The notes below the pieces were generated by a model, which searched no databases, was not told where the DNA came from, and saw only the letters and a list, made by a program, of their open reading frames with translations. A stretch of DNA of 32,345 bases, taken from IMG/VR virus record IMGVR_UViG_3300045921_000092, positions 1 to 32,345 of that record. The stretch is one strand, 5' to 3'. A program made the position numbers and the translations under genes. Of the stretch, positions 2,407-27,612 are shown piece by piece. Source of the stretch: a virus. Position 1 is the stretch's first letter. Every line of letters starts with the position of its first letter.

Positions 2407-2657
2407 CCACCGACCACCGCGACAACGTCACACCGATACGCCGACCCGACGCCGAGCGCGTCTGGCATGAAGCCGACGTCGACGCCCTCGGCTCGCAGCT
2501 CCTCACGCTTGTCGACCTCGGTCGCGCCATCGCCGCCCGCGCGTCGCTCATGCTTGTAGCCGACCCCGAGCTCGTCCTCGCCGGCCAACGTGTCGAGCAC
2601 ATCGCCGGCCGCATCTTCGAGCGCATCTTCGACGCTCCCGTAGGAGCTCCGCAATGA
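2403..2657 (+). CDS. Hypothetical protein, 84 aa
   Basis: A GTG start at 2403 forms a GTGA overlap with the upstream stop, and the end overlaps the next ATG. The N-terminal 20 residues are hydrophilic. The rest is helical, including a moderately hydrophobic helix (DLGRAIAARASLMLVA) and a C-terminal amphipathic helix (HIAGRIFERIF). No motif is recognised. The gene directly precedes two DNA methyltransferase genes and is coupled to them. Confidence 0.62.
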   Translation: MTTDHRDNVTPIRRPDAERVWHEADVDALGSQLLTLVDLGRAIAARASLMLVADPELVLAGQRVEHIAGRIFERIFDAPVGAPQ

Positions 2658-3376
2658 GCGAGCTCGCCGAGCTCGACTCCGCCGTCGAGCGCATCGCTCA
2701 CCGGCCGATCATGGCCGCGTACGCGTGGCCTACGAACGCGGAGCTCGTCGCCGCCGTCGCCCGGCTCTACCTGTCGCCGGCAATGCTCGCCGTCGACGTC
2801 ACCTACGGCCGCGGCAAATGGTGGGACCTCTGGCGACCCGACCGGCTTGTCGCTCACGGCCTCGCGCTCGGCCACGACGGCCACTACGACGACGGCGTCG
2901 ACTTCACAGCACTACCGGAGGCCGACAACGTCTACGACCTCGGAGCGTTCGACCCGCCCTACGTCTCGACCGGCGGCCGCGTCACGCACGGCGCCGCCGG
3001 CGACAGCATGGCGCAGGCCTACGGAATGAGGTCCTCGGCGACCTCGCCCGCCCATAATCAACAGCTCATCGACGCCGGCCTCGCCGAGCTCTACCGCGTC
3101 CTCCGGCCTCGGCGGCGCCGCCGAGGCCGGCTCGTCTCCGGCGTCGCTCTCGTCAAGTGCGCGAACTACATCTCGTCAGGTCGCCGACAACACGGCGTCT
3201 ACTGGACGACCCGAGCGGCGCTCGAGCTCGGTTTCACTGTCCTCGACGAGTTCGTCTACGTCACGTCCGGCGGCCCTCAGCCGACCCGCAACCGCGACGG
3301 AACCCTCCGGCGCCAGGTCCACGCCCGAAACAACTACTCGACGCTCCTCGTCCTCGAAAAAGGTCCGACACGATGA
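2654..3376 (+). CDS. Phage DNA methyltransferase-like protein with DPPY motif
   Basis: The protein carries FDPPY (D100-Y103), the catalytic motif of amino-group DNA methyltransferases acting on adenine N6 or cytosine N4. Upstream is an SAM-site-like strand and loop (VDVTYGRGKWW, residues 47-57). Downstream is a segment typical of phage methylases (VKCANYISSGRRQ, then HARNNYSTLLVL). Family members normally read something like LRPGG(V/L) before VKC; here LRP is followed by five arginines and GRLVS before GVALVKC. These extra residues come from a 28-bp perfect palindrome. Activity is therefore uncertain, although the main motifs remain. Likely roles are modifying phage DNA against host restriction or marking DNA. 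Confidence 0.78.
   Translation: MSELAELDSAVERIAHRPIMAAYAWPTNAELVAAVARLYLSPAMLAVDVTYGRGKWWDLWRPDRLVAHGLALGHDGHYDDGVDFTALPEADNVYDLGAFDPPYVSTGGRVTHGAAGDSMAQAYGMRSSATSPAHNQQLIDAGLAELYRVLRPRRRRRGRLVSGVALVKCANYISSGRRQHGVYWTTRAALELGFTVLDEFVYVTSGGPQPTRNRDGTLRRQVHARNNYSTLLVLEKGPTR
3103..3130. repeat. 28-bp perfect palindrome inside methyltransferase gene
   Basis: The arm CCGGCCTCGGCGGC (3103-3116) is followed without spacer by its exact reverse complement (3117-3130). The palindrome encodes most of the extra Arg-rich residues between LRP and GVALVKC in the methyltransferase. It could extrude as a cruciform or be an insertion of a small palindromic element. Confidence 0.9.
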
Positions 3377-4092
3377 ACCCCTACTACAGCCATCCCACCG
3401 CCGAGCTCTACCTCGGCCACGCCCTCGACGTTCTCGCCGAACTACCGACGGAGTCGGTCGACCTCGTCATAACGGACCCGCCCTACGGCGTCGAATGGCA
3501 AAGCAACCGGCGCGCCGAGAGGTTCGGCCAGCTATTCGCCGACACCACGAACGACCGCGACGGGATACGCGCAGTCATGGCCGAGGCGGTCCGCATCGTC
3601 GGCCAAAACCGGCACCTGTACGCGTTCGGTCCGGCCGACGTCCTCGAAGGCCTCAAGGTCGCCGAGGTAGTCGAGCTCGTCTGGAACAAAAACCGGCCCG
3701 GCATGGGCGATCTAACCGCACCGTGGGCGCCAGCGCATGAGCGCATCAGCTTCACGACGTCCAAACACCGGCACGCCGGCGAAGCCGGCAAACCGAACCT
3801 CCCGGCCAGGCTGCGAAAAGGCTCGGTCCTGACGTTCTCGCCGCCGACCGGCCGCAAGGTACGGCACCCGTCAGAGAAACCCGTCGCGCTCCTCAGAGAA
3901 CTAATCGAGTCAAGCTCGCGAGCTGGCGACCTCGTCCTCGACCCGTTCGCCGGCTCAGGTTCTACAGGCGTCGCCGCCGTGCTCTCCGGCCGGCGCGCCA
4001 TCCTTGTCGAAACAGACGAGCACTACGCCGAGCTCGCCGCCGACCGGCTGGCCGCCGCCGCCGGCATCGCCGCCGAGGCGGCCCTCCTGTGA
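3373..4092 (+). CDS. DNA (N6-adenine or N4-cytosine) methyltransferase, beta-type order
   Basis: Catalytic motif IV appears early (TDPPYGVEW, DPPY at 35-38) and the SAM-binding motif I late (DPFAGSGST, 190-198), preceded by HPSEKP (165-170). This is the order of beta-class DNA methyltransferases. Its 239 residues fit a compact single-domain enzyme. The start at 3373 makes an ATGA overlap with the first methyltransferase. No restriction endonuclease is adjacent, so it is probably an orphan phage enzyme that protects phage DNA or modifies host DNA. The recognition sequence cannot be read from the protein. Confidence 0.9.
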   Translation: MNPYYSHPTAELYLGHALDVLAELPTESVDLVITDPPYGVEWQSNRRAERFGQLFADTTNDRDGIRAVMAEAVRIVGQNRHLYAFGPADVLEGLKVAEVVELVWNKNRPGMGDLTAPWAPAHERISFTTSKHRHAGEAGKPNLPARLRKGSVLTFSPPTGRKVRHPSEKPVALLRELIESSSRAGDLVLDPFAGSGSTGVAAVLSGRRAILVETDEHYAELAADRLAAAAGIAAEAALL

Positions 4093-6930: not shown

Positions 6931-7196
6931 GGGACCGTCGGCCGGAGGGCTACCTCGCCGCGCTTGCCAAGGCTCGCGCCGAACGCGATGCCGTCTACGC
7001 GCCCGTCGTGCCACCGCCGGACGAGCGCGCCGCCGTCGAGGCGTTGCTCGCCCGTCGGCCGCCGTCGCCGTCGGTCGGCTGGCCGCCGCCGCCGCTATCC
7101 GAGGAGGAGCGCGAGCTCGGCCGGCGCGAGCTCGCCCGTATTCGGGCCCAGCTCGACGAGCAGCGCCGCCGCCGCGAGGAGCGCGACGATGGGTAA
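6927..7196 (+). CDS. Hypothetical protein preceding TerS, 89 aa
   Basis: ATG at 6927 is set by the ATGA junction. The protein has an N-terminal helix (GYLAALAKARAERDAVY), a Pro-rich middle (VVPPPDE, PPSPSVGWPPPP) and a long charged C-terminal helix (EEERELGRRELARIRAQLDE and onward) that could form a coiled coil. Its end overlaps the TerS start by eight bases. No family is recognised. Position suggests co-expression with the packaging genes. Confidence 0.65.
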   Translation: MRDRRPEGYLAALAKARAERDAVYAPVVPPPDERAAVEALLARRPPSPSVGWPPPPLSEEERELGRRELARIRAQLDEQRRRREERDDG

Positions 7197-7638
7197 GCGC
7201 GGCCCAGCTAAGACGCCGCCGGCGCTCGCCGTCGCTCGCGGTGAGACGAGGCCGTCGAGAGTCAACCTCAACGCGCCCGACCCGCCGGCTGGCTCTGTAT
7301 CGCCACCGGAGTACCTCGACCTCGACGCGCTCGGCGTCTGGCGTCGGCTTGCTCCGTCGCTCGAGGTTCGCGGCATCCTGACGCGATGGGACGTCGACGC
7401 GTTCGCCGCCTACTGCACGGCTGTCGTCCACCACCGGCGCGCCGTCGACGCTGTGAACCGCGCCGGCATCATCGTCGGCCGAGGAGCTCAGGCACATAAG
7501 CACCCGGCTCTACAGGTGGTGCGCGATCAGGCTGCGCTACTGGTAACGCTCGGCGGCCGGTTCGGCCTCACCCCGTCGGACCGTTCGAGTATCAAGCTTC
7601 CCGAGGCGCCCCAAGATGGCGACGACCTCCTCGACTGA
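7189..7638 (+). CDS. terS: Terminase small subunit, P27 family
   Basis: The protein opens MGKRGPAKTP, as P27-type small terminases often do. The helical core includes LGVWRRLAPSLEVRGILTRW, followed by DVDAFAAYCTAVVHHRRA, and the C-terminus contains FGLTPSDRSSIKLPE, a characteristic end of this family. At 149 residues the length is normal. TerS recognises the packaging site and recruits TerL. The gene lies immediately upstream of TerL, overlapping its assigned start by 23 bases, and just downstream of the candidate cos region. Confidence 0.88.
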   Translation: MGKRGPAKTPPALAVARGETRPSRVNLNAPDPPAGSVSPPEYLDLDALGVWRRLAPSLEVRGILTRWDVDAFAAYCTAVVHHRRAVDAVNRAGIIVGRGAQAHKHPALQVVRDQAALLVTLGGRFGLTPSDRSSIKLPEAPQDGDDLLD

Positions 7639-9484
7639 CCGCGGCTCGGCGTCGAGGACCAGCTCGTCGACGAAGGCCAGCTCGTCGACGAAGGCCAGCT
7701 CGTCGACGAAGGCTGCCGCGGCCCATCAAGGTCGCCGGCCGCCGCCGCCCAGGAGCTCGGCCGCTATGGACCGGCTCATCGCGCGCCACGTCGCCGAATG
7801 GGTCGCCGAAGGCCTCGTCGAGTCGACCGGCTGGACCGGCTTGCCGCTCCTCCGTACACCGCTCCCGCACGGCGCCGGCGTCACGTTCGACCCCGAGCGT
7901 GTTCGTAAGGTCCTCCGGTTCTTTCTTCTCCTCCGGCAGCTCATCGGCCGGCACGCCGGCCGTCGGTTCGTTCTCCTCGACTGGCAGGTCCGCTACCTCA
8001 TCGCGCCAGTGTTCGGCCTCGTCAGCACGTCGACCGGGCGGCGCATCATCCGTACCGTCTGGCTCGAGATACCTCGCAAGAACGGCAAAAGCACGCTATG
8101 CAGCGGCCTCGCGTTGTACCTGTTCACCGGCGACGGCGAGCCCGGCGCGCAGGTCTACGCGGCGGCCGGCGACCGCGGACAAGCAAGCATCGTTTTCGGA
8201 CCCTGTCGAGATATGGCGCTCGGCTCGCCGCCGCTCGTCCGTCGTCTCGGCGCCGGCATCCGCCGGCACTACCTCGAAAACCCTCACTCCGGCGGCATCC
8301 TCCGAGCTCTATCCAGCGACGGCGCCCGGCAGCACGGCCTAAACGTTCACGCCGCCATAATCGACGAGGTTCACGTCCACAAGAACCCCGACCTAGTCGA
8401 CGCTCTCGAAACCGGAGTCGGGTCCCGAGAGCAGCCGCTCGTTACGTTCATCACGACCGCCGACGAAGGCCGCGACGGCTCTATCTACGCGACGAAACGC
8501 GAGTACCTCGAAGGCGTTGTCGCCGGCACCATCGTCGACCGCACCTTCTACGGTTGCGTTTTCGGCGCCGACGCCGCCGCTCCCGACTTTGACCCGTTCG
8601 CGCTCGAGACGTTGCGCGCAGCGAACCCCGGCCTCGGCTACACCGTCCTCGAGGAGTACCTCGTCGCGAAAGCCGAGGAAGCCCGGCAGTCTCCCTCGCA
8701 GCTCAACCGCTACCTACGGTTGCATCTCAACATCAGGACGAAACAGTCCGTCCGATGGCTACCGCTCGACCGATGGGACGCCGGCGCCGGCGTCTCCCCC
8801 GCCGAGCTCGAGGCGATGTTTGCCGGCCGGCCCGCCTACGGCGGCCTCGACCTCTCGAGTACGACCGACTTCACGGCGTTCGCGTTCATCACGCAGCTCG
8901 TCGACGACGCCGGCACCCCGACCGAAGGGTACGCCGCTCACGTCCTCACATGGATACCGGAGGAGCGCGCCGACGAGCTCGAACGTCGGACCGGCGTCCC
9001 GCTCGGCGTCTGGCGCGAGGCCGGTTGGCTCCGGTTCACCGAAGGTAACGTCGTCGACTACGAACAGGTCCGCGCCGACATACGCGCCGAGGAGGAGCGG
9101 CTCGGCTGCACGCTCGTCGAGGTCGGATACGACCCCTGGAACGCGGCCGAGACAGTGAACGAGCTACAGAACGAAGGCCGGACGATGGTCCCGCTCCGGC
9201 AAGGGTACGCGTCGCTCTCATCTCCGTCGAAAGAGCTCGAGCGGCTCGTCATGGGCTCGACGCGTGAGGCTCCGCTCATCGTTCACGCCGGTAACCCCGT
9301 CCTCCGATGGATGGCCGACTCTGTCGAGGTCACACAAGACCCGGCCGGCAACATCAAACCGAGCAAACCGGACCGACGTAAGAGCGCGAAACGTATCGAC
9401 GGTATAGCGGCGCTCGTCAACGCGCTCGCCCGCGCCATGCTCCGGCCGCCGCCGAAACGCGCTCGACGCGTCGCCGGCTTCTAA
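7616..9484 (+). CDS. terL: Terminase large subunit
   Basis: This is the ATP-driven DNA-packaging motor and nuclease. Walker A is at 153-160 (PRKNGKST) and Walker B at 246-252 (AAIIDEVH). An ATPase coupling segment follows (FITTADEG). The RNase H-like nuclease domain begins near 409 (GGLDLSSTTDF, D412), with further acidic residues in GYDPWN (D507) and RIDGIAALVNAL (D599 region). The first 50 residues are Ser/Thr/Lys/Ala-rich and encoded by 18-bp repeats, unlike the rest. ATG at 7616 follows GAGG, but ATG at 7766 (MDRLIARHVAEW) follows AGGAG and could be the true start. Length 622 aa, or 572 from the later start. Confidence 0.95.
   Translation: MATTSSTDRGSASRTSSSTKASSSTKASSSTKAAAAHQGRRPPPPRSSAAMDRLIARHVAEWVAEGLVESTGWTGLPLLRTPLPHGAGVTFDPERVRKVLRFFLLLRQLIGRHAGRRFVLLDWQVRYLIAPVFGLVSTSTGRRIIRTVWLEIPRKNGKSTLCSGLALYLFTGDGEPGAQVYAAAGDRGQASIVFGPCRDMALGSPPLVRRLGAGIRRHYLENPHSGGILRALSSDGARQHGLNVHAAIIDEVHVHKNPDLVDALETGVGSREQPLVTFITTADEGRDGSIYATKREYLEGVVAGTIVDRTFYGCVFGADAAAPDFDPFALETLRAANPGLGYTVLEEYLVAKAEEARQSPSQLNRYLRLHLNIRTKQSVRWLPLDRWDAGAGVSPAELEAMFAGRPAYGGLDLSSTTDFTAFAFITQLVDDAGTPTEGYAAHVLTWIPEERADELERRTGVPLGVWREAGWLRFTEGNVVDYEQVRADIRAEEERLGCTLVEVGYDPWNAAETVNELQNEGRTMVPLRQGYASLSSPSKELERLVMGSTREAPLIVHAGNPVLRWMADSVEVTQDPAGNIKPSKPDRRKSAKRIDGIAALVNALARAMLRPPPKRARRVAGF
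7661..7714. repeat. Three tandem 18-bp repeats near TerL start
   Basis: Three copies of AGCTCGTCGACGAAGGCC lie head to tail; the third differs only in its last base. In frame they encode (SSSTKA)3 in the low-complexity N-terminus assigned to TerL. If TerL really starts at 7766 they lie in a 127-base gap after TerS and could be DNA sites rather than coding. Confidence 0.88.
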
Positions 9485-9521: not shown

Positions 9522-9791
9522 ATGCCCACCGACCAGCACCACGCCGCCGCCGTTGCGGCGCTCGCCGCCAAGTTCCGCGCCGCCGGCCTCCACGTCACCG
9601 ACGGGACGCCGTCGCTCGGCAAGCTCCTCTATCTCGCCGGCCTCGTCGGCGACGACGAGCTCGTCCCGCTCGCACTCTGTTCGAGCCGAGCGGCCGCCGA
9701 GCTTGTGGCGAGCTCGCACCCCGACGGAACCGTCATCACCGTCGAGCTCGACGTCATCGACGGCGACGCCGTCGACTGGCTCGCACAATGA
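9522..9791 (+). CDS. Hypothetical protein, 89 aa, first gene after terminase
   Basis: ATG at 9522 follows CGAAGGACG, a fair ribosome binding site, 37 bases after TerL. The sequence begins with a hydrophilic helix (HHAAAVAALAAKFRAAG), has a strand/helix middle and ends in an acidic strand pattern (VITVELDVIDGDAVDWLA). No family is recognised. Its TGA overlaps the ATG of the first glycosyltransferase (ATGA), so it may belong to the sugar cassette or simply precede it. Confidence 0.65.
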   Translation: MPTDQHHAAAVAALAAKFRAAGLHVTDGTPSLGKLLYLAGLVGDDELVPLALCSSRAAAELVASSHPDGTVITVELDVIDGDAVDWLAQ

Positions 9792-10927
9792 AGGTCCAGC
9801 TTCACGCCGCCGACCTCGGCGGCTGCGGGCACTACCGGCTCATCTGGCCCGGTTCGGCCGCCTACTACGCCGGCGAGGACGTCGACGTCGTCACACCGGA
9901 GGACCCGCGCAGCGTATTCGACGTCGAGGTCGACCCGTTCGCGCCGACACCGGACGGCCGGCCGCACATGATCGCCATCAAGAACCCGCCGGAGGCCGAC
10001 GTCGTCGTCCTACAACGGCCGCTAACCCGCGAGCTCCTCGAGGTCCTCCGGCTCCTCCAGAGCTCCGGCTACGCCGTCGTCGTCGAGGTCGACGACGACT
10101 TCGAGAGCATCGACCCGGCGAACGTCGCCTACCGCACCGTTCACCCGACCTACTCGCCGAACCGGAACTACCGCTACCTCGCGCAAGCCTGCCGCGAGGC
10201 CGACCTCGTCACCGTCACGACGCCGGCGCTCGCCGCACGCTACGGCCGGCATGGGCGCGTACGCATCATCCCGAACATGGTGCCGAGCTCGTATCTTCAC
10301 GTCCTGCCTAACACGCACGAAGGCATCCGCGTCGGCTGGAGCGGCACTATCGACACTCACCCCCGCGACCTACAGGTAACCCGCGGCGCCGTCGCTCGAG
10401 CTCTCCGCCGGCATGGTCTGACGTTCCATCTCATCGGCTCCGGCAGAGTACGCCGGCCGATGCCCGACGGCACGGAGGAGGAGGTAACCGACGTCCGCAT
10501 CCTCCGTAACCTCAACATTGGCGACGGCGAGACGTTCGCGCACACCGGAGGATGGCTCCCGCTCGAAAAATATCCGATGGCAATGGCCGAGCTCGACGTC
10601 GGCCTCGTCCCGCTCGAGCTCTCCGCGTTCAATCAGGCCAAGAGCTACCTAAAAGGCCTCGAGTTCGCCGCCGTCGGCCGGCCGTTCATCGCGTCGCCGA
10701 CCGACCCGTACCTCGAGCTCGCCGGCCTCGGCGCCGGCCTCATCGCCCGCAAACCTCGCGATTGGGAGCTCCTCCTCGACCGGCTCATCGTCGACGAGGA
10801 CTACCGGCTCGAGCTCGGCGCCCACGGCAGGCGACTGGTCGCCGCCGGCCACGTCATCGAAAACAACCTCGACCGCTGGCTCGACGCGTGGAGCGCATCG
10901 CTCGAGCTCGCCGCGCGCCGCCGCTAA
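9788..10927 (+). CDS. Glycosyltransferase, GT-B fold (GT4-like)
   Basis: The 379-residue protein has two Rossmann-like halves. The N-terminal half ends with VVEVDDDF (98-105), EADLVTVTTPALAARYG (137-153) and IIPNMVP (160-166), the usual bridge in group-1 transferases. The C-terminal half begins RVGWSGTIDTHPRDL (181-195) and contains MAELDVGLVPLE (266-277) and KSYLKGLEFAAVGRPFIAS (285-303), where donor-binding acidic residues sit in this family. It should move a sugar from a nucleotide-sugar donor to an unknown acceptor. No signal peptide or membrane segment is seen. It is the first enzyme of the cassette and coupled to the upstream gene by ATGA. Confidence 0.83.
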   Translation: MKVQLHAADLGGCGHYRLIWPGSAAYYAGEDVDVVTPEDPRSVFDVEVDPFAPTPDGRPHMIAIKNPPEADVVVLQRPLTRELLEVLRLLQSSGYAVVVEVDDDFESIDPANVAYRTVHPTYSPNRNYRYLAQACREADLVTVTTPALAARYGRHGRVRIIPNMVPSSYLHVLPNTHEGIRVGWSGTIDTHPRDLQVTRGAVARALRRHGLTFHLIGSGRVRRPMPDGTEEEVTDVRILRNLNIGDGETFAHTGGWLPLEKYPMAMAELDVGLVPLELSAFNQAKSYLKGLEFAAVGRPFIASPTDPYLELAGLGAGLIARKPRDWELLLDRLIVDEDYRLELGAHGRRLVAAGHVIENNLDRWLDAWSASLELAARRR

Positions 10928-10930
10928 GGT
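10925..10930 (+). promoter_or_regulatory. Weak -10-like TAAGGT seven bases before an ATG
   Basis: TAAGGT fits the actinobacterial TANNNT -10 pattern and is followed by exactly seven bases and then the ATG at 10938, so transcription from it would give a leaderless or nearly leaderless message. No -35 is visible. The same bases include AAGG, which could instead be a weak ribosome binding site. Confidence 0.25.
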
Positions 10931-10937
10931 CGCCGAC

Positions 10938-11648
10938 ATGACCACCACGAACACGCCGCGCGTTGTCTACCTTGTCCCGACCAGAGGCCGCCCGGCCCGC
11001 ACCGTCGAGCTCCTCGACGCGTGGGAAACGACCCGCGCCGGCGTCGCCGACCTCGTCCTCCTCGTCGACCAAGACGACCCGACACTCGACCAGTACCGGG
11101 AGGTCGAGCTCCCCGAATGGGCCGAGCTCGTCGTCGGCGAGCGGCTCCGGCTCGGCGGCACCCTCAACACCTACGCGCCCGTCTACGCCCGGCTCTACGC
11201 CGGCGTCGGTTTCATGGGAGACGACCACCGGCCTCGCTCGCTCCGATGGGATGAGCAGCTCGCCGCCGAGCTCGCGCTCGGCGGTCCGGCCGCCGTCGTC
11301 TACGGAAACGACCTAATCCACGGCGGTAACCTTCCGACGGCCGTACTCCTCGGTTCGCTTGTCGTCGACGAGCTCGGCTACTTCGTTCCGCCCGGCATGG
11401 TCCATCTGTGGCTAGATAACTACTGGCTCGAGCTCGGCCGCCGGCTCGGCACGCTGCGCTACCGCGCCGACGTCGTCATCGAGCATCAGCACCCGATAAC
11501 CGGACGCGTCGCGTGCGACGACGGCTACCGAGAGGTAAACGACTCCAGCGTCTACAAGGCCGACGAGGCCCGGTTCCGCGACTACGTCCGGCTTGACCTC
11601 GACGTCGCCGTCGACCGGCTCCGGGCCCGACTCGAGGAGGTCCGCTAG
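10938..11648 (+). CDS. Glycosyltransferase-like protein, GT-A fold
   Basis: The N-terminus (VVYLVPTRGRPARTVELLDAW, strand-loop-helix) is the nucleotide-binding opening of GT-A enzymes. LLVDQDD (41-47) and GFMGDDH (91-97) follow; the latter is in the position of the metal/UDP-binding DxD-type motif. Later, WLDNYWLELGRRLG (about 155-168) resembles the acceptor-side region of related phage proteins. At 236 residues it is a compact soluble enzyme. The gene starts 10 bases after the first transferase and ends in TAGTG with the methyltransferase. Donor and acceptor are unknown. Confidence 0.72.
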   Translation: MTTTNTPRVVYLVPTRGRPARTVELLDAWETTRAGVADLVLLVDQDDPTLDQYREVELPEWAELVVGERLRLGGTLNTYAPVYARLYAGVGFMGDDHRPRSLRWDEQLAAELALGGPAAVVYGNDLIHGGNLPTAVLLGSLVVDELGYFVPPGMVHLWLDNYWLELGRRLGTLRYRADVVIEHQHPITGRVACDDGYREVNDSSVYKADEARFRDYVRLDLDVAVDRLRARLEEVR

Positions 11649-12253
11649 TGGAATGGCAGCTCTACCCCGCCGGCACCGTGCCAGAGTTCACCCAACCCGA
11701 GTTCTTCGTTCGGCATGACTGGATACCGCCAGCGTTGCAGCTAGGCCACGCCGAACGACTCGAGCTCGTCGCGACGATGGTCGCCGAGCTTGCCCCCGCG
11801 ACCGTTGTCGACCTCGGCGCCGGAGACGGCTCGCTTCTCGGCCGGCTAGCCGAGCTCGGCATCAGCGGCCACGGATACGACCTCGGCGCCGCGAACCGCG
11901 ACCGCGCCACCCGCGCCGGCCGAGACGTCAGAGCGGCCAACATCGTCGACGACCTCGAGAAGCTTGACCTCGCCGACCTCATCGTCTGCACCGAGGTAGT
12001 CGAACATCTACTCGACCCGCACGGCTGGCTACGCCGTCTCGCCGCCGCCGCCGGCGACCGGCTCGTCGTTCTCTCAAGCCCAAGCTCCGAAACCGACGTC
12101 GACCACTACGAACACCACGCGTACGCGTGGGACTGTGACGGCTACCGGGAGCTTGTCGAGGCGGCCGGGTTTGTCGTGCTCGAACATCGCACCGTCTCCG
12201 CCGGCCGGCTCGAGTTTCAGGCCGTCGTCATCCGCGCCGAGGAGGTCCGCTAG
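11648..12253 (+). CDS. Class I SAM-dependent methyltransferase
   Basis: GTG at 11648 overlaps the preceding stop (TAGTG). Motif I, VVDLGAGDGSLL (53-64), binds SAM. GHGYDLG (75-80) supplies the acidic residue after strand 2, and LIVCTEVVEHLLDP (111-124) is the post-II/III region seen in small-molecule and sugar methyltransferases of the Methyltransf_11/23 type. The DPPY motif of DNA methylases is absent. Its position between glycosyltransferases and an epimerase suggests it methylates a sugar or glycan. The 201-residue length is normal. The next ATG follows immediately after its stop. Confidence 0.85.
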   Translation: MEWQLYPAGTVPEFTQPEFFVRHDWIPPALQLGHAERLELVATMVAELAPATVVDLGAGDGSLLGRLAELGISGHGYDLGAANRDRATRAGRDVRAANIVDDLEKLDLADLIVCTEVVEHLLDPHGWLRRLAAAAGDRLVVLSSPSSETDVDHYEHHAYAWDCDGYRELVEAAGFVVLEHRTVSAGRLEFQAVVIRAEEVR

Positions 12254-13186
12254 ATGCGTGCCCGCTCTGCTCTCGTCACCGGCTCCGCCGGTTTCATCGG
12301 CCGGCACGTCGTTACCGAGCTCATTCGCCGCGGCTACACCGTCACCGGCGTCGACGTCACTATCGGGACGCCGCCGCTTGTCGCGCGCGACGTCCTCGGA
12401 GACGCGTTGCATCTGTTCCGCACCGAAGGTTGGCGCTACGACCTCATCGTCCACGCGGCCGCCGTCGTGGGCGGCCGTACCATGATCGACGGCCGCCCGT
12501 TCGAGCTCGCCGGCGTCGACCTCGAGCTCGACGCCGCTCTCTGGCGATACGCGCACCGCACCCGCCCCGGCCGCGTGTTGTACCTGTCAAGCTCGGCCGC
12601 CTACCCCGTCGTCTATCAAGCCGAGCACCTACGCCGGCCGCTCTCCGAGGACCTCATCGACCTTGACCGCTCCGCCCGGTTCCTCGGCCGGCCCGACGGT
12701 ACCTACGGCCTCGTCAAGCTCGTCGGCGAGCTCCTCGCCGTCGAGGCCCGAGCGGAGGGCATCCCCGTTACCGTCGTCCGGCCGTTCTCCGGCTACGGCG
12801 AGGACCAGGCCGTCGACTATCCATTCCCCGCGTTCGTCGCGCGAGCTCTCCGCCGCGAGGACCCGTTCGAGGTATGGGGACCCGGTACTCAGGTCCGCGA
12901 CTTCGTTCACGTCGACGACGTTGTCCGTATCGCCGTCGACCTCGCCGAGCTCGGCGTGAACGACGCCGTGAACATCGGCACCGGCCGGCCGACGTCGTTC
13001 CTCGAGCTCGCCGAGCTCGTCACCGACGCCGCCGGCTACCGGCCGGCCATCGTCACACGACCCGACGCGCCCGTCGGCGTCGACTACCGCGTCGCAGACA
13101 CCGACCGCGCCTACCGCTACGGCGCCGTCGCCGAGCTCCGGCTCGAGGACGGCGTCGCCCGAGCTATCCGAGCGGCGGCAACGTGA
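12254..13186 (+). CDS. NAD-dependent sugar epimerase/dehydratase (extended SDR)
   Basis: The Rossmann motif TGSAGFIG (9-16, GxxGxxG) binds NAD(P). VHAAAVVGG (66-74) and LYLSSSAAYP (109-118) match the nucleotide-sugar epimerase core, and the catalytic Y151-x3-K155 is in GTYGLVKLVGE. VVRPFSGYG and the later GPGTQVRDFVHVDD with NIGTG are standard for the UDP/GDP-sugar epimerase-dehydratase branch. It would convert one nucleotide sugar into another, feeding the neighbouring transferases. At 310 residues it is full length. The substrate cannot be deduced. Its stop overlaps the next GTG start. Confidence 0.92.
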   Translation: MRARSALVTGSAGFIGRHVVTELIRRGYTVTGVDVTIGTPPLVARDVLGDALHLFRTEGWRYDLIVHAAAVVGGRTMIDGRPFELAGVDLELDAALWRYAHRTRPGRVLYLSSSAAYPVVYQAEHLRRPLSEDLIDLDRSARFLGRPDGTYGLVKLVGELLAVEARAEGIPVTVVRPFSGYGEDQAVDYPFPAFVARALRREDPFEVWGPGTQVRDFVHVDDVVRIAVDLAELGVNDAVNIGTGRPTSFLELAELVTDAAGYRPAIVTRPDAPVGVDYRVADTDRAYRYGAVAELRLEDGVARAIRAAAT

Positions 13187-13779
13187 GAGACGTAACCGTC
13201 GTCATCCCGACTATTCCACCGCGGGCCCGGCTCCTCGCCCGAGCTCTCGGCTCCGTCTCGAAACAGGAGCACCCGGCCGACGCCGTCGTCATCGCTCAAG
13301 ACGTCGACGGTCGCGGCGCGTGGGACACGCGTAACCGCGGAGTGCTTCACGTCCGCACAACATGGACGGCGTTCCTCGACGACGACGACGAGCTCCTCCC
13401 GCACCATCTCCGCCGGCTCCTCGAGCTCGCCGAGGAAAGCTCCGCCGGTTTGGTATGGGGATGGTTCGAGGTCATCGGCGGCCGCGACCCGTTCCCGCAG
13501 CACCGAGGACGCACCTACAACCCGGCAGCTCCCCATATCGTGCCGATCACCTACCTAGTCCGCACCGAGCTCCTCCTCGCCGCAATGCTCGAGGTAGGAG
13601 GCTTCCGACCCGACCACGCTGGCGCGTGGGACGAGCAGGACGAGCCCATATTTTCGGCGATGGCCCGGCTAGGTGGCACGGCGAACACGTCCGAGGTCAC
13701 ATGGCTATGGTCCCATCACGGAGCGAACACGTCCGGCCTCCCCGAACGATGGCACCCCTCCCCGGCGCGCGCGACGTAG
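13183..13779 (+). CDS. Glycosyltransferase family 2-like protein, 198 aa
   Basis: The GTG at 13183 forms a GTGA overlap with the epimerase stop. The N-terminus VTVVIPTIPPRARLLARALG is typical of GT2 enzymes. VVIAQDVDGRGAWDTRNRG (35-53) is the donor-binding stretch, and FLDDDDELLP (64-73) carries the DxD metal-binding motif. GAWDEQDEPIFSAMARLG (147-164) corresponds to the ED/acceptor region. It is somewhat short for GT2, lacking C-terminal extensions. It closes the sugar cassette; the portal gene starts 25 bases later behind its own strong ribosome binding site. Confidence 0.8.
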   Translation: MRDVTVVIPTIPPRARLLARALGSVSKQEHPADAVVIAQDVDGRGAWDTRNRGVLHVRTTWTAFLDDDDELLPHHLRRLLELAEESSAGLVWGWFEVIGGRDPFPQHRGRTYNPAAPHIVPITYLVRTELLLAAMLEVGGFRPDHAGAWDEQDEPIFSAMARLGGTANTSEVTWLWSHHGANTSGLPERWHPSPARAT

Positions 13780-13804: not shown

Positions 13805-15226
13805 ATGGCTCAGACCGTCGAGCAGCTCCGCGACAGGCTTATCGAGCAGCTCGTCGCGCAGGGCGCACGCTGGCGCAGGTTCGACGCGTACTACCGCGGC
13901 GACCATCCGCTCCCCGACGCGCCGGTCGGCGCCCGGCTCGAGTATCTCCGGCTCATGCGGCTGGCCCGTTCCAACTGGTGCGAGCTCATCGTCGACGCCG
14001 TAGCCGAGCGGCTTGTCGTCGACGGCGTCCGGTTTGGTAATCAGAACACGGCCGACGCCGACCTCTGGCTCTGGCTCTGGCAGGCGAACGACCTCGACGC
14101 CGAGCATGGCTCCGTACACACGGAGGCGCTCGTCGGCGGCACGGCGGCGGTTCTCGTCTGGCCCGACGTCGAGCGCGGCGTCGAGGGCCCGCCCACCGCG
14201 ACGGCCGAACACCCGACGGAGGTCTACGTCGACCTCTACCCTGGCGGCCGCCGCCGGCGGCGCGCCGCCGTCAAGTTGTACCGTGACGGCGGCTCCGAGT
14301 TCGTCACCGTCTGGACCGACCGAGACGTCGATACGCCGGCGATGGTCTACAAATGGGCCCGCGACGACGGCGAGACGGCTTGGCGCCCCTACGCCGACGT
14401 CGGCGACTCCGGGCCCGCGTTCCCGAACGAGCTCGGCGAGGTTCCCGTCGTCCCGTTCTACAACAAGCGGCGCATGATCGGCGCCGGCGTCTCCGAGCTC
14501 GACGGCGGCATCGTCGACATTCAGGACCGCATCAACGAGACGATTTTCGGTCGGCTCACCGCTGCCCGGTTCTCGGCGTTCCGTCAGCGATGGGTAACCG
14601 GCCTCGACATTCCCGTCGACCCCGATACGGGCCGCTCTGTCGAACCGTTCCGCGCCGCCGTCGATCGCTTGTGGATGGCCGAGGACGCCGGCGTCAAGTT
14701 CGGCGAGTTCGGCGCAACCGACCTCCGGCCCTACATCGACTCCGTGGAGTCAGACATTCAGCATCTCGCCGCCATCTCCCGCACCCCGCCCCACTACTTG
14801 CTAGGTCAATCGGGCGCGTTCCCGTCCGGCGAGTCGCTCAAGGCCACCGAAACCGGCCTCGTCGCGAAGGTGCGCGCCCGTATGCTCGCGTTCGGCGAAG
14901 CATGGGAGGACGTCATACGGCTAGGCCTCGCCGCCCGGCAGGACGCCCGCGCCGCCGACGACTCGCTCGAGGTCATCTGGCGCGACCCCGAGAGTAAGAA
15001 TGTCGGCGAGCTAGTTGACGCTCTCGTCAAGCTCGGCACGCTCGGCGTCCCGAATGAGGCTCTGTGGGAGCGTTACGGCGCATCTCAGCAGGAGATAAAC
15101 CGATGGCGAGGGCAGGCCGCTCGAGCGCAGCTCGCCGCCGCCGCCGCGGCTCGCCAGGCCGCCCCGTCGGCGCCGACGATGCCGACCCCATCGGCGCCGG
15201 CGGAGGCCGTCGGCGCCACCCCGTAG
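13805..15226 (+). CDS. Portal protein, SPP1 gp6-like
   Basis: The ATG at 13805 follows GGAGGAGG, one of the strongest ribosome binding sites in the window. The 473-residue protein has the features of actinophage portals: RRFDAYYRGDHPLP near the N-terminus, ARSNWCELIVDAVAERLVV, a beta-rich wing, EVPVVPFYNKRR, then DIQDRINETIFGRLTAARFS and the stem/crown region with ISRTPPHYLLGQSGAFPSGE. The last ~40 residues are Ala/Pro/Thr-rich. Twelve copies normally form the ring at the packaging vertex, docking TerL and the connectors. Confidence 0.93.
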   Translation: MAQTVEQLRDRLIEQLVAQGARWRRFDAYYRGDHPLPDAPVGARLEYLRLMRLARSNWCELIVDAVAERLVVDGVRFGNQNTADADLWLWLWQANDLDAEHGSVHTEALVGGTAAVLVWPDVERGVEGPPTATAEHPTEVYVDLYPGGRRRRRAAVKLYRDGGSEFVTVWTDRDVDTPAMVYKWARDDGETAWRPYADVGDSGPAFPNELGEVPVVPFYNKRRMIGAGVSELDGGIVDIQDRINETIFGRLTAARFSAFRQRWVTGLDIPVDPDTGRSVEPFRAAVDRLWMAEDAGVKFGEFGATDLRPYIDSVESDIQHLAAISRTPPHYLLGQSGAFPSGESLKATETGLVAKVRARMLAFGEAWEDVIRLGLAARQDARAADDSLEVIWRDPESKNVGELVDALVKLGTLGVPNEALWERYGASQQEINRWRGQAARAQLAAAAAARQAAPSAPTMPTPSAPAEAVGATP

Positions 15227-18417: not shown

Positions 18418-19332
18418 ATGGCAAACACACTCAACACCGGCACCGGCGCCGGCAGCCTCGCGAACTTCATCCCCGAGGTATGGGCGAACAGCGCGCTCGA
18501 CGTCCTCCGTTCGCAGATCGTGCTCGCCCGCGTCATCACGAAGGACAGCGACGTCGCCACGTTCACGCAGGGCGACGTCCTGACCGTCTCGGTTCCCGGC
18601 ACGTTCGCCGCTCAGGACAAGGCCGCCGGCACCGCCGTCACCTTGCAGAACCCGAGCGCGAACAAGGTCACAGTGACGCTCAACAAGCACAAAGAGGTTT
18701 CGTTCATCGTCGAGGACCCCGTTCGCGCTCAGGCCAATCAGGACACCGTCATGCGGCACGTCCGACAGGCTGCGGTCGCTCTCGCCGAACAGATCGAGGC
18801 CGACGTCGCCGGCCTCTACGCCGGCCTCTCCGGCGTCGTCGGCGGGCCCGGCACCCCGGCGTCGCGTGCATCGCTCCTCACCATCCGGCAGACGCTCAAC
18901 GACAACAAGGCGCCCACCGCCGGCCGGTTCGTCGTCGTCGGCCCGGCCGGCGAGGTCGACCTCCTCGGCGACAACGACCTCAAGGGGTACTTCGAGAACG
19001 CACGGCCCGAGGCCGTCTCGGAAGGTTCCCTCGGCCGCGTGTTCGGCATGGACGTCTACATGTCGCAGCTCGTCCCGACCTCCGGCGCCGGTGCAACCGG
19101 CATCGCAGGTACGCCCGAGTTCGGCATCCTCGCCATGCGTTCGCTCCCGACGACCGGCGCCCCCGGCGTCGAGCAGATCGCGATGCGCGACGCGCAGAGC
19201 GGCCTCGTCATCCGCCAGACGGCGAGCTACGACACGGACCTCCTCGGCATCAAGGTCACGCTCGACGTCCTCTACGGCGTCGCCGAGATGCGCGACGAGT
19301 GCGGGGTCGCGTTCGCTCACGCCAAGAGCTAA
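18418..19332 (+). CDS. Major capsid protein, HK97-type fold
   Basis: The start MANTLNT at 18418 follows AAAGGA. Features of actinophage capsid proteins are clear: NFIPEVWANSALDVLRSQIV near the N-terminus, FTQGDVLTVSVPG, a helix with TVMRHVRQAAVALAEQIEAD (spine-like), FVVVGPAGEVDLLGD, and C-terminal TLDVLYGVAEMRDECGVAF. The 304-residue length is typical for a protein with a separate scaffold. It forms the icosahedral shell. Flanking signals (strong binding site, large downstream hairpin) suit a very highly expressed gene. Confidence 0.93.
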   Translation: MANTLNTGTGAGSLANFIPEVWANSALDVLRSQIVLARVITKDSDVATFTQGDVLTVSVPGTFAAQDKAAGTAVTLQNPSANKVTVTLNKHKEVSFIVEDPVRAQANQDTVMRHVRQAAVALAEQIEADVAGLYAGLSGVVGGPGTPASRASLLTIRQTLNDNKAPTAGRFVVVGPAGEVDLLGDNDLKGYFENARPEAVSEGSLGRVFGMDVYMSQLVPTSGAGATGIAGTPEFGILAMRSLPTTGAPGVEQIAMRDAQSGLVIRQTASYDTDLLGIKVTLDVLYGVAEMRDECGVAFAHAKS

Positions 19333-21203: not shown

Positions 21204-21758
21204 ATGGCGAAAGACTCAGGACAGACGCGAGTCGCCGGCACCGGCTCCGTCTACATCGCACCGTATGGCGCCGCTCTGCCGAGCGCGTACAACGCGCCGC
21301 TACCGTCCGCGTACGTCGAGCTCGGCTACACGACGGAGGAGGGCGTCACGTTCACAGACGAGCCGACCATCGACCGTAAAGGCTCATGGCAGTCTTTCTA
21401 CCCAACTCGCATCCTCGAAACGGCCCGCATGGCAAAAGTCGCGTTCGACCTCGAACAGTGGAACACCGACACGCTCACGGTCGCCGCCGGCGGCGGCACC
21501 GTCTCCGCCGCCGGCTCCGGCATCAAGTTCACGCCGCACGCCGCCGGCTCCGTCTCCGAATGGACCGTCGTCGTCGACGTCACCGACGGCACCATCTCAG
21601 ACCGATGGGTACTCCCGCGGGCGCTCGTCGTGTCGGCGCTGGAAACGCAGCTCAACCGTGCCGACCTCGCCGTCATGCCCGTCGAGCTCGAGGCCATTGG
21701 GGAGGACGGCGTCAACCCCTGGGAGTTCTACAGCAGCGATACGACGTCGTTCGCGTAA
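21204..21758 (+). CDS. Major tail tube protein
   Basis: The start at 21204 follows GAAAGGACACC, a good ribosome binding site. The N-terminus (VAGTGSVYIAPYGAALPSAY) and VELGYTTEEGVTFTDEPTID are typical of actinophage major tail proteins, followed by a beta-sandwich with a Gly-rich turn (TVAAGGGTVSAAGSG) and C-terminal DGVNPWEFYSSD. The 184-residue size is normal. It stacks as hexameric rings to form a flexible, non-contractile tail tube; no sheath gene is present. Confidence 0.9.
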   Translation: MAKDSGQTRVAGTGSVYIAPYGAALPSAYNAPLPSAYVELGYTTEEGVTFTDEPTIDRKGSWQSFYPTRILETARMAKVAFDLEQWNTDTLTVAAGGGTVSAAGSGIKFTPHAAGSVSEWTVVVDVTDGTISDRWVLPRALVVSALETQLNRADLAVMPVELEAIGEDGVNPWEFYSSDTTSFA

Positions 21759-23857: not shown

Positions 23858-24654
23858 GCACAAACGTTACGCTTGACGGCGTCTCCCTCGCCGTAGCAGT
23901 CCCGACGGCGAAAGTGCTACGCGTCCGACGTCAGCTCGTCGGCGCCCGCCGCGAAACGTTCGTAGACGTCCCCGGCCGCGCCGGCGCGTGGGTTTTTCCG
24001 AGCGAGCCCGGCGACCGGAGTATCCGGCTCGACGTCGACATAGCGGCGGCCTCGTTCGCTCTCCGACGGCAAGCAGTCCGCAAGCTCGCCGAATGGGCCG
24101 ACACGCTCGACGGCCGCGTCCGGCTCATCGTGGACGACGAACCCGACCGCTACCACGCCGCCGTTCTCGCGTCAGCTCCCGACGTCGACGAATGGCTCCT
24201 CTCCGGCGAGGCCTCCCTCGAGTACCGTGCGGACCCCTACGCCTACGCCGTGTCGACGAGCTCGACGTCCGTGACGGCGTCGGCCGGTACCGCATCCGGC
24301 GCGTTCGCAGGCTCCGGCGACGTCGCCGCCTACCCCGTCATCGAGATAACACCGCTCAACGGCACGCTCACAGCGTTCACGGTGCAGCTCAACGGCGACA
24401 CGCTCTCATGGTCCGACAACCCGGTCCCCTCCGGCGCAACCGTCACCGTCTCGAGCATCTCCTACACGATCACGACCGGCGTCTCGTCCGATACCAACCT
24501 CTCCGGCGTCTACATCGAGAACGACGTAGTGATGCAAACCGTCACCGGCCGGTTCCCTGTCATCGTCGCCGGCACCAATACCTACAACTTCACGACGACC
24601 GGCACCGCAACCGCGGTGCGGTTCCGTATCACATGGAGGGCGCGTTACCGATGA
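23854..24654 (+). CDS. Distal tail protein (Dit-like)
   Basis: ATG at 23854 overlaps the tape measure stop. The N-terminal part has beta strands and FVDVPGRAGAWVFPSEPGDRS, a helix (SFALRRQAVRKLAEWADTLD), then VRLIVDDEPDRYHAAVLASA and ASLEYRADPYAYA; this combination is the Dit/minor tail signature in actinophages. The C-terminal ~110 residues are Thr/Ser/Val-rich beta structure (YPVIEITPLNG, LSWSDNP), probably a galectin- or carbohydrate-binding-like domain. It should form the hub joining the tube to the tip. Confidence 0.85.
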   Translation: MSTNVTLDGVSLAVAVPTAKVLRVRRQLVGARRETFVDVPGRAGAWVFPSEPGDRSIRLDVDIAAASFALRRQAVRKLAEWADTLDGRVRLIVDDEPDRYHAAVLASAPDVDEWLLSGEASLEYRADPYAYAVSTSSTSVTASAGTASGAFAGSGDVAAYPVIEITPLNGTLTAFTVQLNGDTLSWSDNPVPSGATVTVSSISYTITTGVSSDTNLSGVYIENDVVMQTVTGRFPVIVAGTNTYNFTTTGTATAVRFRITWRARYR

Positions 24655-25592: not shown

Positions 25593-25976
25593 ATGTCAGC
25601 CCCCACCATCTACGCCGCGAACGCGCTACTCGACGGTACCGCCCTACCGCAGACGCTCTACATCAAGGCTCACACCGGCAACCCCGGCGCGAACGCGACA
25701 GCGAACGCAGCGAACGAAACGGACCGAGCGGCGCTCACATGGGGAGCGGCCACCGGCGGCGCCGCGTCGAACGACGCCGTCGTCGAATGGGTAGGCGTCA
25801 GCTTCGACGAGACGTGGACACACTGGTCCGCGTGGGATGCAGCGACAGGCGGTAACCCCTGGCTCGTCGGCGTCGTAAAACAGTCCGGCGTCGCGAACCC
25901 GCTTGTCGTCGAGGTAGGGAACACCGTCCGTATCGGTATTGGCGACTTCGACCTCTCCGTCCCCACCTGGACCTAA
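25593..25976 (+). CDS. Phage tail fibre-like protein, 127 aa
   Basis: ATG at 25593 follows TAGGAGG. The protein contains LYIKAHTGNPGANATANAAN, AALTWGAATGGAASND, WTHWSAWDAATGGNPWLVG and GNTVRIGIGDFDLSV. This is the compact beta domain with the HTGNPG...WDAATGG pattern that recurs in actinophage and other tail fibre proteins. It is probably a head-binding or tip-attached fibre module. It lies between the repeat-bearing fibre and a larger minor tail protein. Confidence 0.78.
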   Translation: MSAPTIYAANALLDGTALPQTLYIKAHTGNPGANATANAANETDRAALTWGAATGGAASNDAVVEWVGVSFDETWTHWSAWDAATGGNPWLVGVVKQSGVANPLVVEVGNTVRIGIGDFDLSVPTWT

Positions 25977-25980
25977 GCCG

Positions 25981-27612
25981 ATGGCCGAGCCCCTCAAGTT
26001 ATGCCCGTCGTTCGTTCGGCCTACTACGTCGCTCGTCGCGAGCGTGAACCTGGAAGGCTCAGGCGCGACCATCGTCTCCGGCGCCACCGAAACACCGCTG
26101 CTCCGCGACGGCCTGGAGTACCGCGTGTTTTGCGCCGTGTCGAGCTCGACGACCCCTATGAACATCGGCGCCGGCTGGACCGACCTCGGCAGCTACAACG
26201 GCGCCGGCGGCGGCCGCATGACCCTTGCCGTCTCCGGCGTCGCCGACGCCATCACCGGCACCCCGGCCGGCAACATCACAACCGGCTCAACATGGGGCAC
26301 CGCCGGCGGCCTCCGTAAAACGCTCCAGGTCGCCGGCTCCGATGCCCGCGCCGCATGTTCGGCGACCACCGGCTCCGGCTCAGGTACCACGATGACCGCG
26401 CCGTCGGCGGCGGCACCGTCGCGGCCGGTCCGTGTGCTCCGGTTCCTCATCGCGTCCGGTACATCGGCGCCGACACCCGGCGCGCCGAGCTCCTACGGTG
26501 GTGAGAACTACGCCGTCGGCTCGTCGACCCTCGGCACCGACTATTCGTGGTGCATCGTCGACGACGGCGTCTATCTTCCCGGTGCAGCTATCCCGGCGAT
26601 CACGTCGTCGCTCTCAAGCTCGAGAGCATGGCTAGCCGCGACCGTCCTCGTCCCTCTGTGGCCCGTCGTCAAGCCCGTAGCTATCGCGTCGGCGTCGACC
26701 ACGACGACGTTCGCGTCGGCGGGCTCGTTCACCGGCAACCCGTACACCATCTGCGGTATGACGTCCGGCGCCGTCACACCAGGCGATGGCGCTGTCGGCC
26801 GAGCCCAAGCCGATGACGTCATGCTCCTCATGTTGTGTGAGAACAACGGCGGCAACTTCTCCGCGTCTCCGCCGACTCAGCACACCATCCTCGCAGGACC
26901 CTGGACCGGAGGCGACCGCGCCAACGCGGGGCAAGGCATCGTCTACCTTCACACGGCAACCGGCCCGACATGGACCGGCGGCACGATCACCTATTCGGCG
27001 AACGGCACGAACTACACCATGAACCGGACCGGCGTCGCGTTCCGCGGGGTCGACAGTGTCAGCGTTACGAGCTACGGCCCGACGCAAGCGCCCGTCTCCG
27101 GTACCGACATGGTCGCTCCCGATGGAACCGTCGACCGCGCCGGTTCTATTGGCATCTACTACGCCGTGCAGGGCGGCGTCCTACAAGATACGTTCCCGTC
27201 GTTCTCCGGTTCGCAGCTCGTTCGGCGCGAGCTCAACGGCCTCGCCTGGACGAACTCCGGCGACTCGAGGATGCGGTTCCAGGTTGTCTACGCGACCGAG
27301 CTCCCGGCCGGCACATGGTCGCCGCCGTTCGTCGTGCAGACGGCGAACAACCCACGCAACTACGCCGCAGCGACCATCGTCCTGAACGTCGTCCCTGTCC
27401 TCGTCACGTTCGAGGCGGTCGCCGAGCTCGACGTCGACGCGTCGGCCGACAACTGGCTCGCCGAAAGCGGTACAGCGTTCGAGGCGGTCGCCGAGCTCTA
27501 CGTCGACGCGTCGGCGTCGTTCGCAGTCGACCGGCGGCGTCGCAAGCCCAAGCGCGAGTTCGTCTACATCTACGACGCGCACGGAAGGCAGCAAGGTGTC
27601 ATCGTCAACTAG
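25981..27612 (+). CDS. Minor tail protein / fibre, 543 aa
   Basis: ATG at 25981 is chosen because it lies just after the upstream stop; an in-frame ATG at 25939 would overlap that gene. The protein is Ser/Thr/Gly/Ala-rich and beta in character throughout, with about seven cysteines. Two related halves seem present: the first contains SRAWLAATVLVPLWP, the second AQADDVMLLMLCENNGG and YTMNRTGVAFRGVDS. Near the end two copies of FEAVAEL(D/Y)VDASA precede a basic stretch (RRRRKPKR) and YIYDAHGRQ. Many Ser/Thr residues make it a possible glycosylation target. The next GTG overlaps its end by 17 bases. Confidence 0.75.
   Translation: MAEPLKLCPSFVRPTTSLVASVNLEGSGATIVSGATETPLLRDGLEYRVFCAVSSSTTPMNIGAGWTDLGSYNGAGGGRMTLAVSGVADAITGTPAGNITTGSTWGTAGGLRKTLQVAGSDARAACSATTGSGSGTTMTAPSAAAPSRPVRVLRFLIASGTSAPTPGAPSSYGGENYAVGSSTLGTDYSWCIVDDGVYLPGAAIPAITSSLSSSRAWLAATVLVPLWPVVKPVAIASASTTTTFASAGSFTGNPYTICGMTSGAVTPGDGAVGRAQADDVMLLMLCENNGGNFSASPPTQHTILAGPWTGGDRANAGQGIVYLHTATGPTWTGGTITYSANGTNYTMNRTGVAFRGVDSVSVTSYGPTQAPVSGTDMVAPDGTVDRAGSIGIYYAVQGGVLQDTFPSFSGSQLVRRELNGLAWTNSGDSRMRFQVVYATELPAGTWSPPFVVQTANNPRNYAAATIVLNVVPVLVTFEAVAELDVDASADNWLAESGTAFEAVAELYVDASASFAVDRRRRKPKREFVYIYDAHGRQQGVIVN
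27407..27520. repeat. Two-copy 69-bp repeat in minor tail gene
   Basis: Copies begin at 27407 and 27476 with the shared core CGTTCGAGGCGGTCGCCGAG, followed by GTCGACGCGTCGGC in both. They encode the 23-residue units FEAVAELDVDASADNW and FEAVAELYVDASASF. The second copy is truncated. Confidence 0.85.

Follow-up and report, generated by a model that had tools for sequence, protein, structure and literature searches.

Why should a virus carry five genes for sugar chemistry between its large terminase (TerL) gene and its portal gene, and on which molecule would their product be placed? The question is raised by a stretch of viral DNA, hereafter the window, which is the whole of IMG/VR record IMGVR_UViG_3300045921_000092 (32,345 bases, approximately 70% G+C, linear and possibly incomplete). 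An earlier note, made from the sequence alone, had described in it a nearly gapless five-gene block at positions 9788-13779, and all of its open reading frames (ORFs), their order, flanks and junctions are confirmed here. In order, the block encodes a glycosyltransferase (GT) of GT-B fold (GT1_B), a GT of GT-A fold (GT2_A), a methyltransferase (MT), a probable nucleotide-sugar epimerase (EPI) and a small GT2-family enzyme (GT5). I find that this five-gene glycan cassette is real, conserved and old at this place; the reading that I favour, with moderate confidence, is that it forms an operon making a short methylated glycan in the cytoplasm for the phage's own virion proteins. Glycosylation of phage virions has become known only recently, and is tied to immune recognition of mycobacteriophages.

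Results

Two contigs from other metagenome assemblies (L009 and L010) are 100% identical to the window across TerL, cassette and portal, and the same five-gene block occupies the TerL|portal site in five to six further distinct contigs (L011/L012, L013, L014, L015, L091 and L092-L094). Within this lineage, identities to the window are 58-74% for TerL, 66-76% for the portal, 50-63% for GT1_B, 55-60% for GT2_A, 50-64% for EPI, 64-74% for GT5 and 35-43% for MT, the most divergent of the five cassette proteins. The block is present at the same site in every contig whose portal is at least 66% identical to that of the window, and portal relatives at 36-42% identity gave no cassette match. In the tree of the GT-A enzyme, all lineage members fall on one side of a supported branch (Shimodaira-Hasegawa-like approximate likelihood ratio test, 96-98). 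G+C content, G+C content at third codon positions and codon adaptation of the cassette are those of the structural genes, in agreement with the earlier view that the block was not freshly acquired.

A survey of other phages for the block, which the earlier note had proposed, found recurring partners well beyond this lineage. One scan with GT2_A gave 85 viral relatives, 80 of which were kept, and their gene neighbourhoods were worked out by codon-based gene calling followed by clustering. At a distance of at most 8 genes from GT2_A, the MT family occurs in 53 of 78 viral loci, EPI in 52, GT5 in 34 and GT1_B in 21; MT lies immediately next to GT2_A in 34/78 loci and is fused to it in 4. The site differs between groups of loci: the TerL|portal junction in the lineage of the window, the interval between the phrog_10 major capsid gene and the phrog_442 connector in some 25 loci, where a further GT is often present, the 3' side of tape-measure or tail genes in others, a position after the portal and a head-morphogenesis gene in L062 and L069, the vicinity of a 660-aa FtsK-like gene in phages of roughly 80 kb, and the neighbourhood of endolysin-like and terminase genes in further loci. 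On the GT2_A tree, six site classes require 8 site changes (minimum 5, mean for shuffled labels 28.7), which indicates that the module is stable within lineages and has moved between lineages. Nine GT2_A relatives were found in bacterial genomes, most of them with phage genes as neighbours (the FtsK-like set, or portal, capsid or terminase genes), and apparent prophages with cassettes occur in Streptomyces, Actinomadura, Spongiactinospora and Micromonospora; as all nine belong to Actinomycetota, Actinobacteria are the likely hosts. Judged from these comparisons, GT2_A, a family without a name, is the hallmark gene of a recurring module.

The three GTs are predicted to have intact active sites. 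GT1_B contains the C-terminal domain of GT4 enzymes (PF13524) above cut-off, its family profile matches the structures of MshA (3c4q, E 2e-9) and BshA (2jjm), and K285, S286 and E292 are invariant. GT5 has the invariant residues D66, D68 and D69 of a DDD-type motif; its gene begins at 13183 and not at the first ATG of the ORF. GT2_A falls into no Pfam family and its sequence found no counterpart in the PDB, but structure prediction bore out the GT-A fold: the AlphaFold2 model (predicted local distance difference test, pLDDT, 96.7; predicted template modelling score 0.93) is matched by Foldseek to the GT-A enzymes PcManGT, WrtF fucosyltransferase, AvpGT and polypeptide GalNAc-transferase 2 (E 5e-8, probability 1.00). 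As the template modelling (TM) scores of these matches reach only 0.5-0.63, they establish the class of fold but not the donor. Its invariant residues are G94-D95-D96-H97, D125, H156, D160, H183, H185, D194 and D209; of these, D95-D96-H97 would suit a DxH motif that binds metal, with H183/H185 as the distal histidine.

EPI has the invariant Y151 and K155 of an extended short-chain dehydrogenase/reductase (SDR), and its nearest solved structures are MoeE5 (a UDP-glucose 4-epimerase), the 6zl6 epimerase and GDP-fucose synthase. Two more specific assignments were rejected. As a GDP-L-fucose synthase the protein scores 82.5 bits against a curated cut-off of 500 and has an alanine in place of the SSC cysteine; as a dTDP-glucose 4,6-dehydratase it scores 50.4 bits against 365, with SSSAAYP where the TDE motif is expected. 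Because the dehydratase motif and the fucose-synthase cysteine are missing and both cut-offs are far off, an epimerase is the likeliest reading of this sequence. The enzyme assignments of the earlier note are thus upheld by Pfam and PHROG families and by the GT2_A model, with its 'epimerase/dehydratase' narrowed by residues to an epimerase type. A search of the lineage for a nucleotidyltransferase of family PF00483 found none.

MT carries a metal-site signature, E116-x2-E119-H120 with H157, that is invariant in 48 homologues. In enzymes of the Hen1/UbiG type, such E-x2-E-H and histidine residues hold a metal, and the methyl group goes to one of two vicinal hydroxyls. The best PDB matches of the MT profile are UbiG (3e-10) and Hen1 (4xcx, E 8e-10); with the AlphaFold2 model (pLDDT 96.3), the top Foldseek matches are the dTDP-sugar C-methyltransferases KijD1, TcaB9 and MtmC, though class I methyltransferases cross-match broadly. 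MT as a Hen1 equivalog, acting in RNA repair, was rejected at 20.3 bits against the NCBIfam cut-off of 340. The methyltransferase slot beside GT2_A is filled by three families, namely the Methyltransf_23 type, the Rhamnosyl O-methyltransferase/CmcI family PF04989 (in the cluster of L081, L084 and L085) and Methyltransf_24, PF13578 (in Pas34 of Actinoplanes phage phiAsp2 and in L091, a member of the window's own lineage), and some cassettes have two or three consecutive methyltransferases. That three families share one slot suggests that methylation, and not one particular enzyme, is the kept function of the module, the enzyme being seemingly exchangeable. This fits a glycan methylation pattern that varies among relatives, though such variation alone is no proof of an exposed, selected structure. 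A putative phage metallopeptidase lies inside the cassette between GT2_A and the methyltransferases in L014 (6460-7002, PF18894) and L015 (6504-7049, same protein cluster).

Possible acceptors are listed with the other features in the table. The C-terminus of the major tail protein, SSDTTSFA, contains serine and threonine and is conserved in two relatives by alignment. Among 285 compared proteins, the highest Ser/Thr contents (26-29%) belong to repetitive proteins of 445-520 aa in L045, L061 and L064, each encoded downstream of the cassette at a distance of 3-4 genes; their composition makes them suggestive candidates for mucin-like glycosylation. A fibre protein of the PF23140 Gp80 type adjoins the cassette in L037, L045, L056 and L064, and in L045 and L064 it stands beside the Ser/Thr-rich repeat protein; the tail region of the window repeats that pairing, with its PF23140 protein followed by one of 20% Ser/Thr. 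Another putative fibre protein of the window (24651-25580) has three nearly identical repeats (HVSGDAGVMALAVRQDTLAALAGT...).

Table. Features of the cassette, its flanks and candidate acceptors (positions in the window unless another record is named)
Feature	Position	Strand	Family match or remark
TerS	7189-7638	+
TerL (left flank)	7766..9484, ORF open from 7616	+	PF20441, PF03354; phrog_9 E 1e-139
89-aa ORF without known family	9522..9791	+	between terL and cassette; ATGA overlap with GT1_B
GT1_B, GT-B fold glycosyltransferase of GT4 type	9788..10927 (379 aa)	+	PF13524 E 2.7e-6; phrog_7162 E 5e-37
GT2_A, GT-A fold glycosyltransferase	10938..11648 (236 aa)	+	no Pfam family; phrog_14945 E 9e-51
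MT, class I S-adenosylmethionine-dependent methyltransferase, putative sugar O-methyltransferase	11648..12253 (201 aa, GTG start)	+	PF13489 E 5e-16
EPI, probable extended-SDR nucleotide-sugar epimerase	12254..13186 (310 aa)	+	PF01370 E 4e-37
GT5, small GT2-family (GT-A) glycosyltransferase	13183..13779 (198 aa, GTG start)	+	PF00535 E 2e-11; phrog_14775 E 5e-34
Portal, SPP1 gp6 type (right flank)	13805..15226	+	PF05133 E 1e-32; phrog_104 E 1e-120
Major head protein, possible acceptor	18418..19332	+	phrog_283 E 1e-43
Major tail protein, possible acceptor	21204..21758	+	phrog_117 E 3e-25
Gp80-type fibre protein, possible acceptor neighbourhood	25593..25976	+	PF23140 E 1e-17
Putative fibre/tail protein, Ser/Thr-rich (20%), possible acceptor	26158..27612	+	composition, sequence; no family
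Ser/Thr/Ala-rich repeat protein, L045	12120-13610		between capsid-side glycan cassette and head-tail connector
Ser/Thr/Ala-rich repeat protein, L061	12952-14514		between capsid-side glycan cassette and head-tail connector
Ser/Thr/Ala-rich repeat protein, L064	12592-13929		between capsid-side glycan cassette and head-tail connector

Discussion

Virion glycosylation of mycobacteriophages is reportedly the subject of work by Freeman et al. from 2023, and phage GTs of broadly the present sort are said, in work by Pyle et al. from 2024, to modify DNA. The mycobacteriophage system resembles the window in that the GTs are encoded by actinobacteriophages, that a methyltransferase is named as a sign of virion glycosylation (PMC13313380) and that the glycans sit on the C-termini of capsid and tail-tube subunits (PMC12619734, PMC13313380). 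It differs in that the block of the window comprises five genes with an epimerase of its own between terL and portal, and that its GTs are without a match in Mycobacterium phages by tblastn (at E 1e-5 for GT1_B and GT2_A, and 1e-3 for GT5). The cassette may therefore work like the mycobacteriophage system, whereas membership of the same family is unsupported.

Closer relatives by sequence are found elsewhere. In pas33-pas34-pas35 of phiAsp2, downstream of the tail genes, Pas34 joins an N-terminal GT2_A domain (E 4e-76) to a methyltransferase domain, with two further GTs flanking it; unlike in the window, the fused methyltransferase belongs to the Methyltransf_24 family, an epimerase is not among the annotated genes, and the site is not TerL|portal. 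RefSeq and PHROG 2675 label this fusion (L118, 14937-16727) a 'DNA methyltransferase', and the phiAsp2 record's own note calls it a putative O-methyltransferase; the former label looks wrong, and in public databases it appears misleading. The Streptomyces phages Annadreamy, Beuffert and Samisti12 and the Arthrobacter phages Atuin and Mimi have GT2_A relatives of 35-44% identity, with relatives of GT5 and GT1_B as well in Atuin and Mimi; however, the partner of this GT pair is a cytidylyltransferase-like protein (PF01467) and not an epimerase with a methyltransferase, and the pair lies amid DNA-metabolism or tRNA genes.

I infer the acceptor, the sugar, its attachment, the sequence of reactions and the gain for the phage as follows. 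Late in infection, and in the cytoplasm, EPI would epimerise a nucleotide sugar of the host (UDP- or GDP-hexose), the phage bringing no sugar-nucleotide synthase of its own. GT2_A or GT5 would then add the first sugar to a protein of the head, tail or fibres. The remaining GT-A enzyme, together with GT1_B, would extend the chain. MT would methylate a sugar hydroxyl, probably one of a vicinal pair at its metal site, and the finished glycan might shield the particle or tune its adsorption.

This virion glycan is favoured by the repeated occurrence of the module among genes for head and tail, by soluble enzymes (none of the five cassette proteins has a membrane segment, the highest 19-residue hydropathy being 1.5), by the lack of a GtrA flippase in all 50 cassette-bearing records (0/50), by the absence of base-hydroxylation genes from the window and by the mycobacteriophage precedent. 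Several observations weigh against it. A recognised virion or packaging gene lies within 5 kb in only 36/70 non-redundant loci, a raw count without a background rate, and in the lineage of Streptomyces phage Beuffert the GT pair stands amid DNA-metabolism genes. A Tet_JBP gene is present in 5/50 cassette-bearing records (L039, L043, L046, L049 and L051), of which four belong to the FtsK-type lineage; the distance between that gene and the cassette is tens of kb. The missing match in Mycobacterium phages counts on the same side, as does the finding that neither the capsid protein (in four lineage members) nor the major tail protein (in three) has a Ser/Thr-rich extension or C-terminal tail. The earlier suggestion that Ser/Thr-rich tail proteins nearby are possible acceptors gains no statistical support overall: such proteins show no general enrichment close to cassettes (7.0% vs 7.1%, p = 1), although the three richest ones in the related loci lie 3-4 genes away.

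Alternatively, the target could be the actinobacterial host, with a glycan or glycolipid of its cell wall altered by the cassette, for instance to mask the receptor against superinfection in a manner resembling seroconversion. Sets of GT, epimerase and methyltransferase genes are typical of surface glycan loci, the apparent prophages make expression in lysogens possible, and a tyrosine integrase is present in 8/50 records and a large serine recombinase in 1/50. However, with soluble enzymes and no flippase, and with neither tyrosine integrase nor large serine recombinase found in the linear, possibly incomplete window, I regard this alternative as unlikely; moreover, the genes are co-directional inside the late structural operon and not near an immunity region. 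Serotype conversion of the gtr type was rejected, as the GtrA flippase and a membrane-bound GT were not found, nor was an integrase in the window as far as it is covered by this linear record. The earlier note had left open a virion or a cell-surface glycan: a glycan of either kind remains preferred over modified DNA, and the surface half of that proposal is weakened.

A diffusible glycoside, or a modified host molecule such as a small molecule, lipid or RNA, serving for instance in counter-defence or signalling, seems rather improbable. The nearest structures to GT1_B, MshA and BshA, belong to enzymes that glycosylate small acceptors, and the residues of MT resemble those of Hen1, which acts on the 3' terminal ribose of RNA. 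Against this, the repeated embedding among virion genes, the fusion of methyltransferase and GT and the replacement by a family of rhamnosyl O-methyltransferase type point to the decoration of sugars, and neither the GTs nor the epimerase match a defence family.

Improbable, too, is the glycosylation of hydroxymethylated bases in the phage genome, of the T4 type or as part of TET-associated hypermodification. The clustering of phage GTs is common to both systems, a TET-associated GT is among the weak fold matches of GT2_A (TM 0.63), the GTs of Beuffert are placed among replication genes, and a reference to Pyle et al. 2024 in PMC12619734, as far as it is quoted there, concerns GTs of broadly such a sort that modify DNA in other phages. 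In contrast, Tet_JBP, a thymidylate-synthase-like hydroxymethylase and a C5-methylase were not found over cut-off in the window or in the sampled records of its lineage (L013-L015 and L091), which like the linear window may be fragments; this agrees with the earlier judgement that DNA glucosylation is less likely. Where TET is present it is distant from the cassette, and MT shows the metal signature of Hen1/UbiG and not DNA-methylase motifs. In the TET-carrying phages, some such GTs may nevertheless glycosylate DNA. In L039, the neighbours of the TET gene include a P-loop gene that looks kinase-like and another resembling ParB, both named by eye.

Finally, a chimeric assembly, which the earlier note had considered, is ruled out by the identical block in two other assemblies (L009/L010) and by its syntenic counterparts in five or more other distinct contigs, and with intact reading frames and invariant catalytic residues a decayed, non-functional insertion is hardly credible either.

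If the cassette does decorate virion proteins, it would represent a separate, recurring multi-enzyme form of virion glycosylation, with epimerisation and O-methylation of the sugar, across many actinobacterial phages, and the GT2_A family would provide a recognisable marker gene with cultured relatives in phiAsp2, Atuin, Zuko and Annadreamy. A wider proposal, which I offer tentatively and with some doubt, is that actinobacterial phages share a mobile and widespread cassette for virion glycans, with the GT2_A family at its centre, and that this cassette would have entered at least five virion-gene contexts and would swap its methyltransferases, so that relatives would wear different methylated glycans as a kind of phage 'serotype'; the acceptor in some lineages could be the adjacent mucin-like Ser/Thr-rich fibre.

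Additional observations

Nearly all genes of the window are on the + strand, and the late region runs in the order TerS, TerL, 89-aa ORF, the five-gene cassette, portal, a MuF/protease-like protein, a scaffold-like protein, major head protein, connectors, major tail protein, tape measure, tail and fibre proteins and endolysin. The 89-aa ORF has identical copies in L009 and L010 only, and gave no blast match in the other lineage members; in some relatives a different small ORF fills its slot.

The junctions within the cassette are, in order, a 10 bp gap, a 1-base overlap (TAGTG), a direct abutment and a 4-base overlap (GTGA). The sequence GAGGAGGTCCGCTAG is common to the GT-A/MT (11634-11649) and MT/EPI (12239-12254) junctions, and the similar GGAGGAGGTCC is found just before the portal gene; for GGAGGTCC, 6 copies were counted in the window where 2.3 would be expected. 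The sequence shared by the junctions is perhaps only a ribosome-binding site within a stop-codon overlap. A scan of the window for promoters and terminators gave nothing above chance.

Upstream of the late region, the window encodes an orphan N6/N4 DNA methyltransferase (3373-4092, PF01555, E 9e-24), immediately preceded by a second gene (2654-3376) that is weakly methylase-like.

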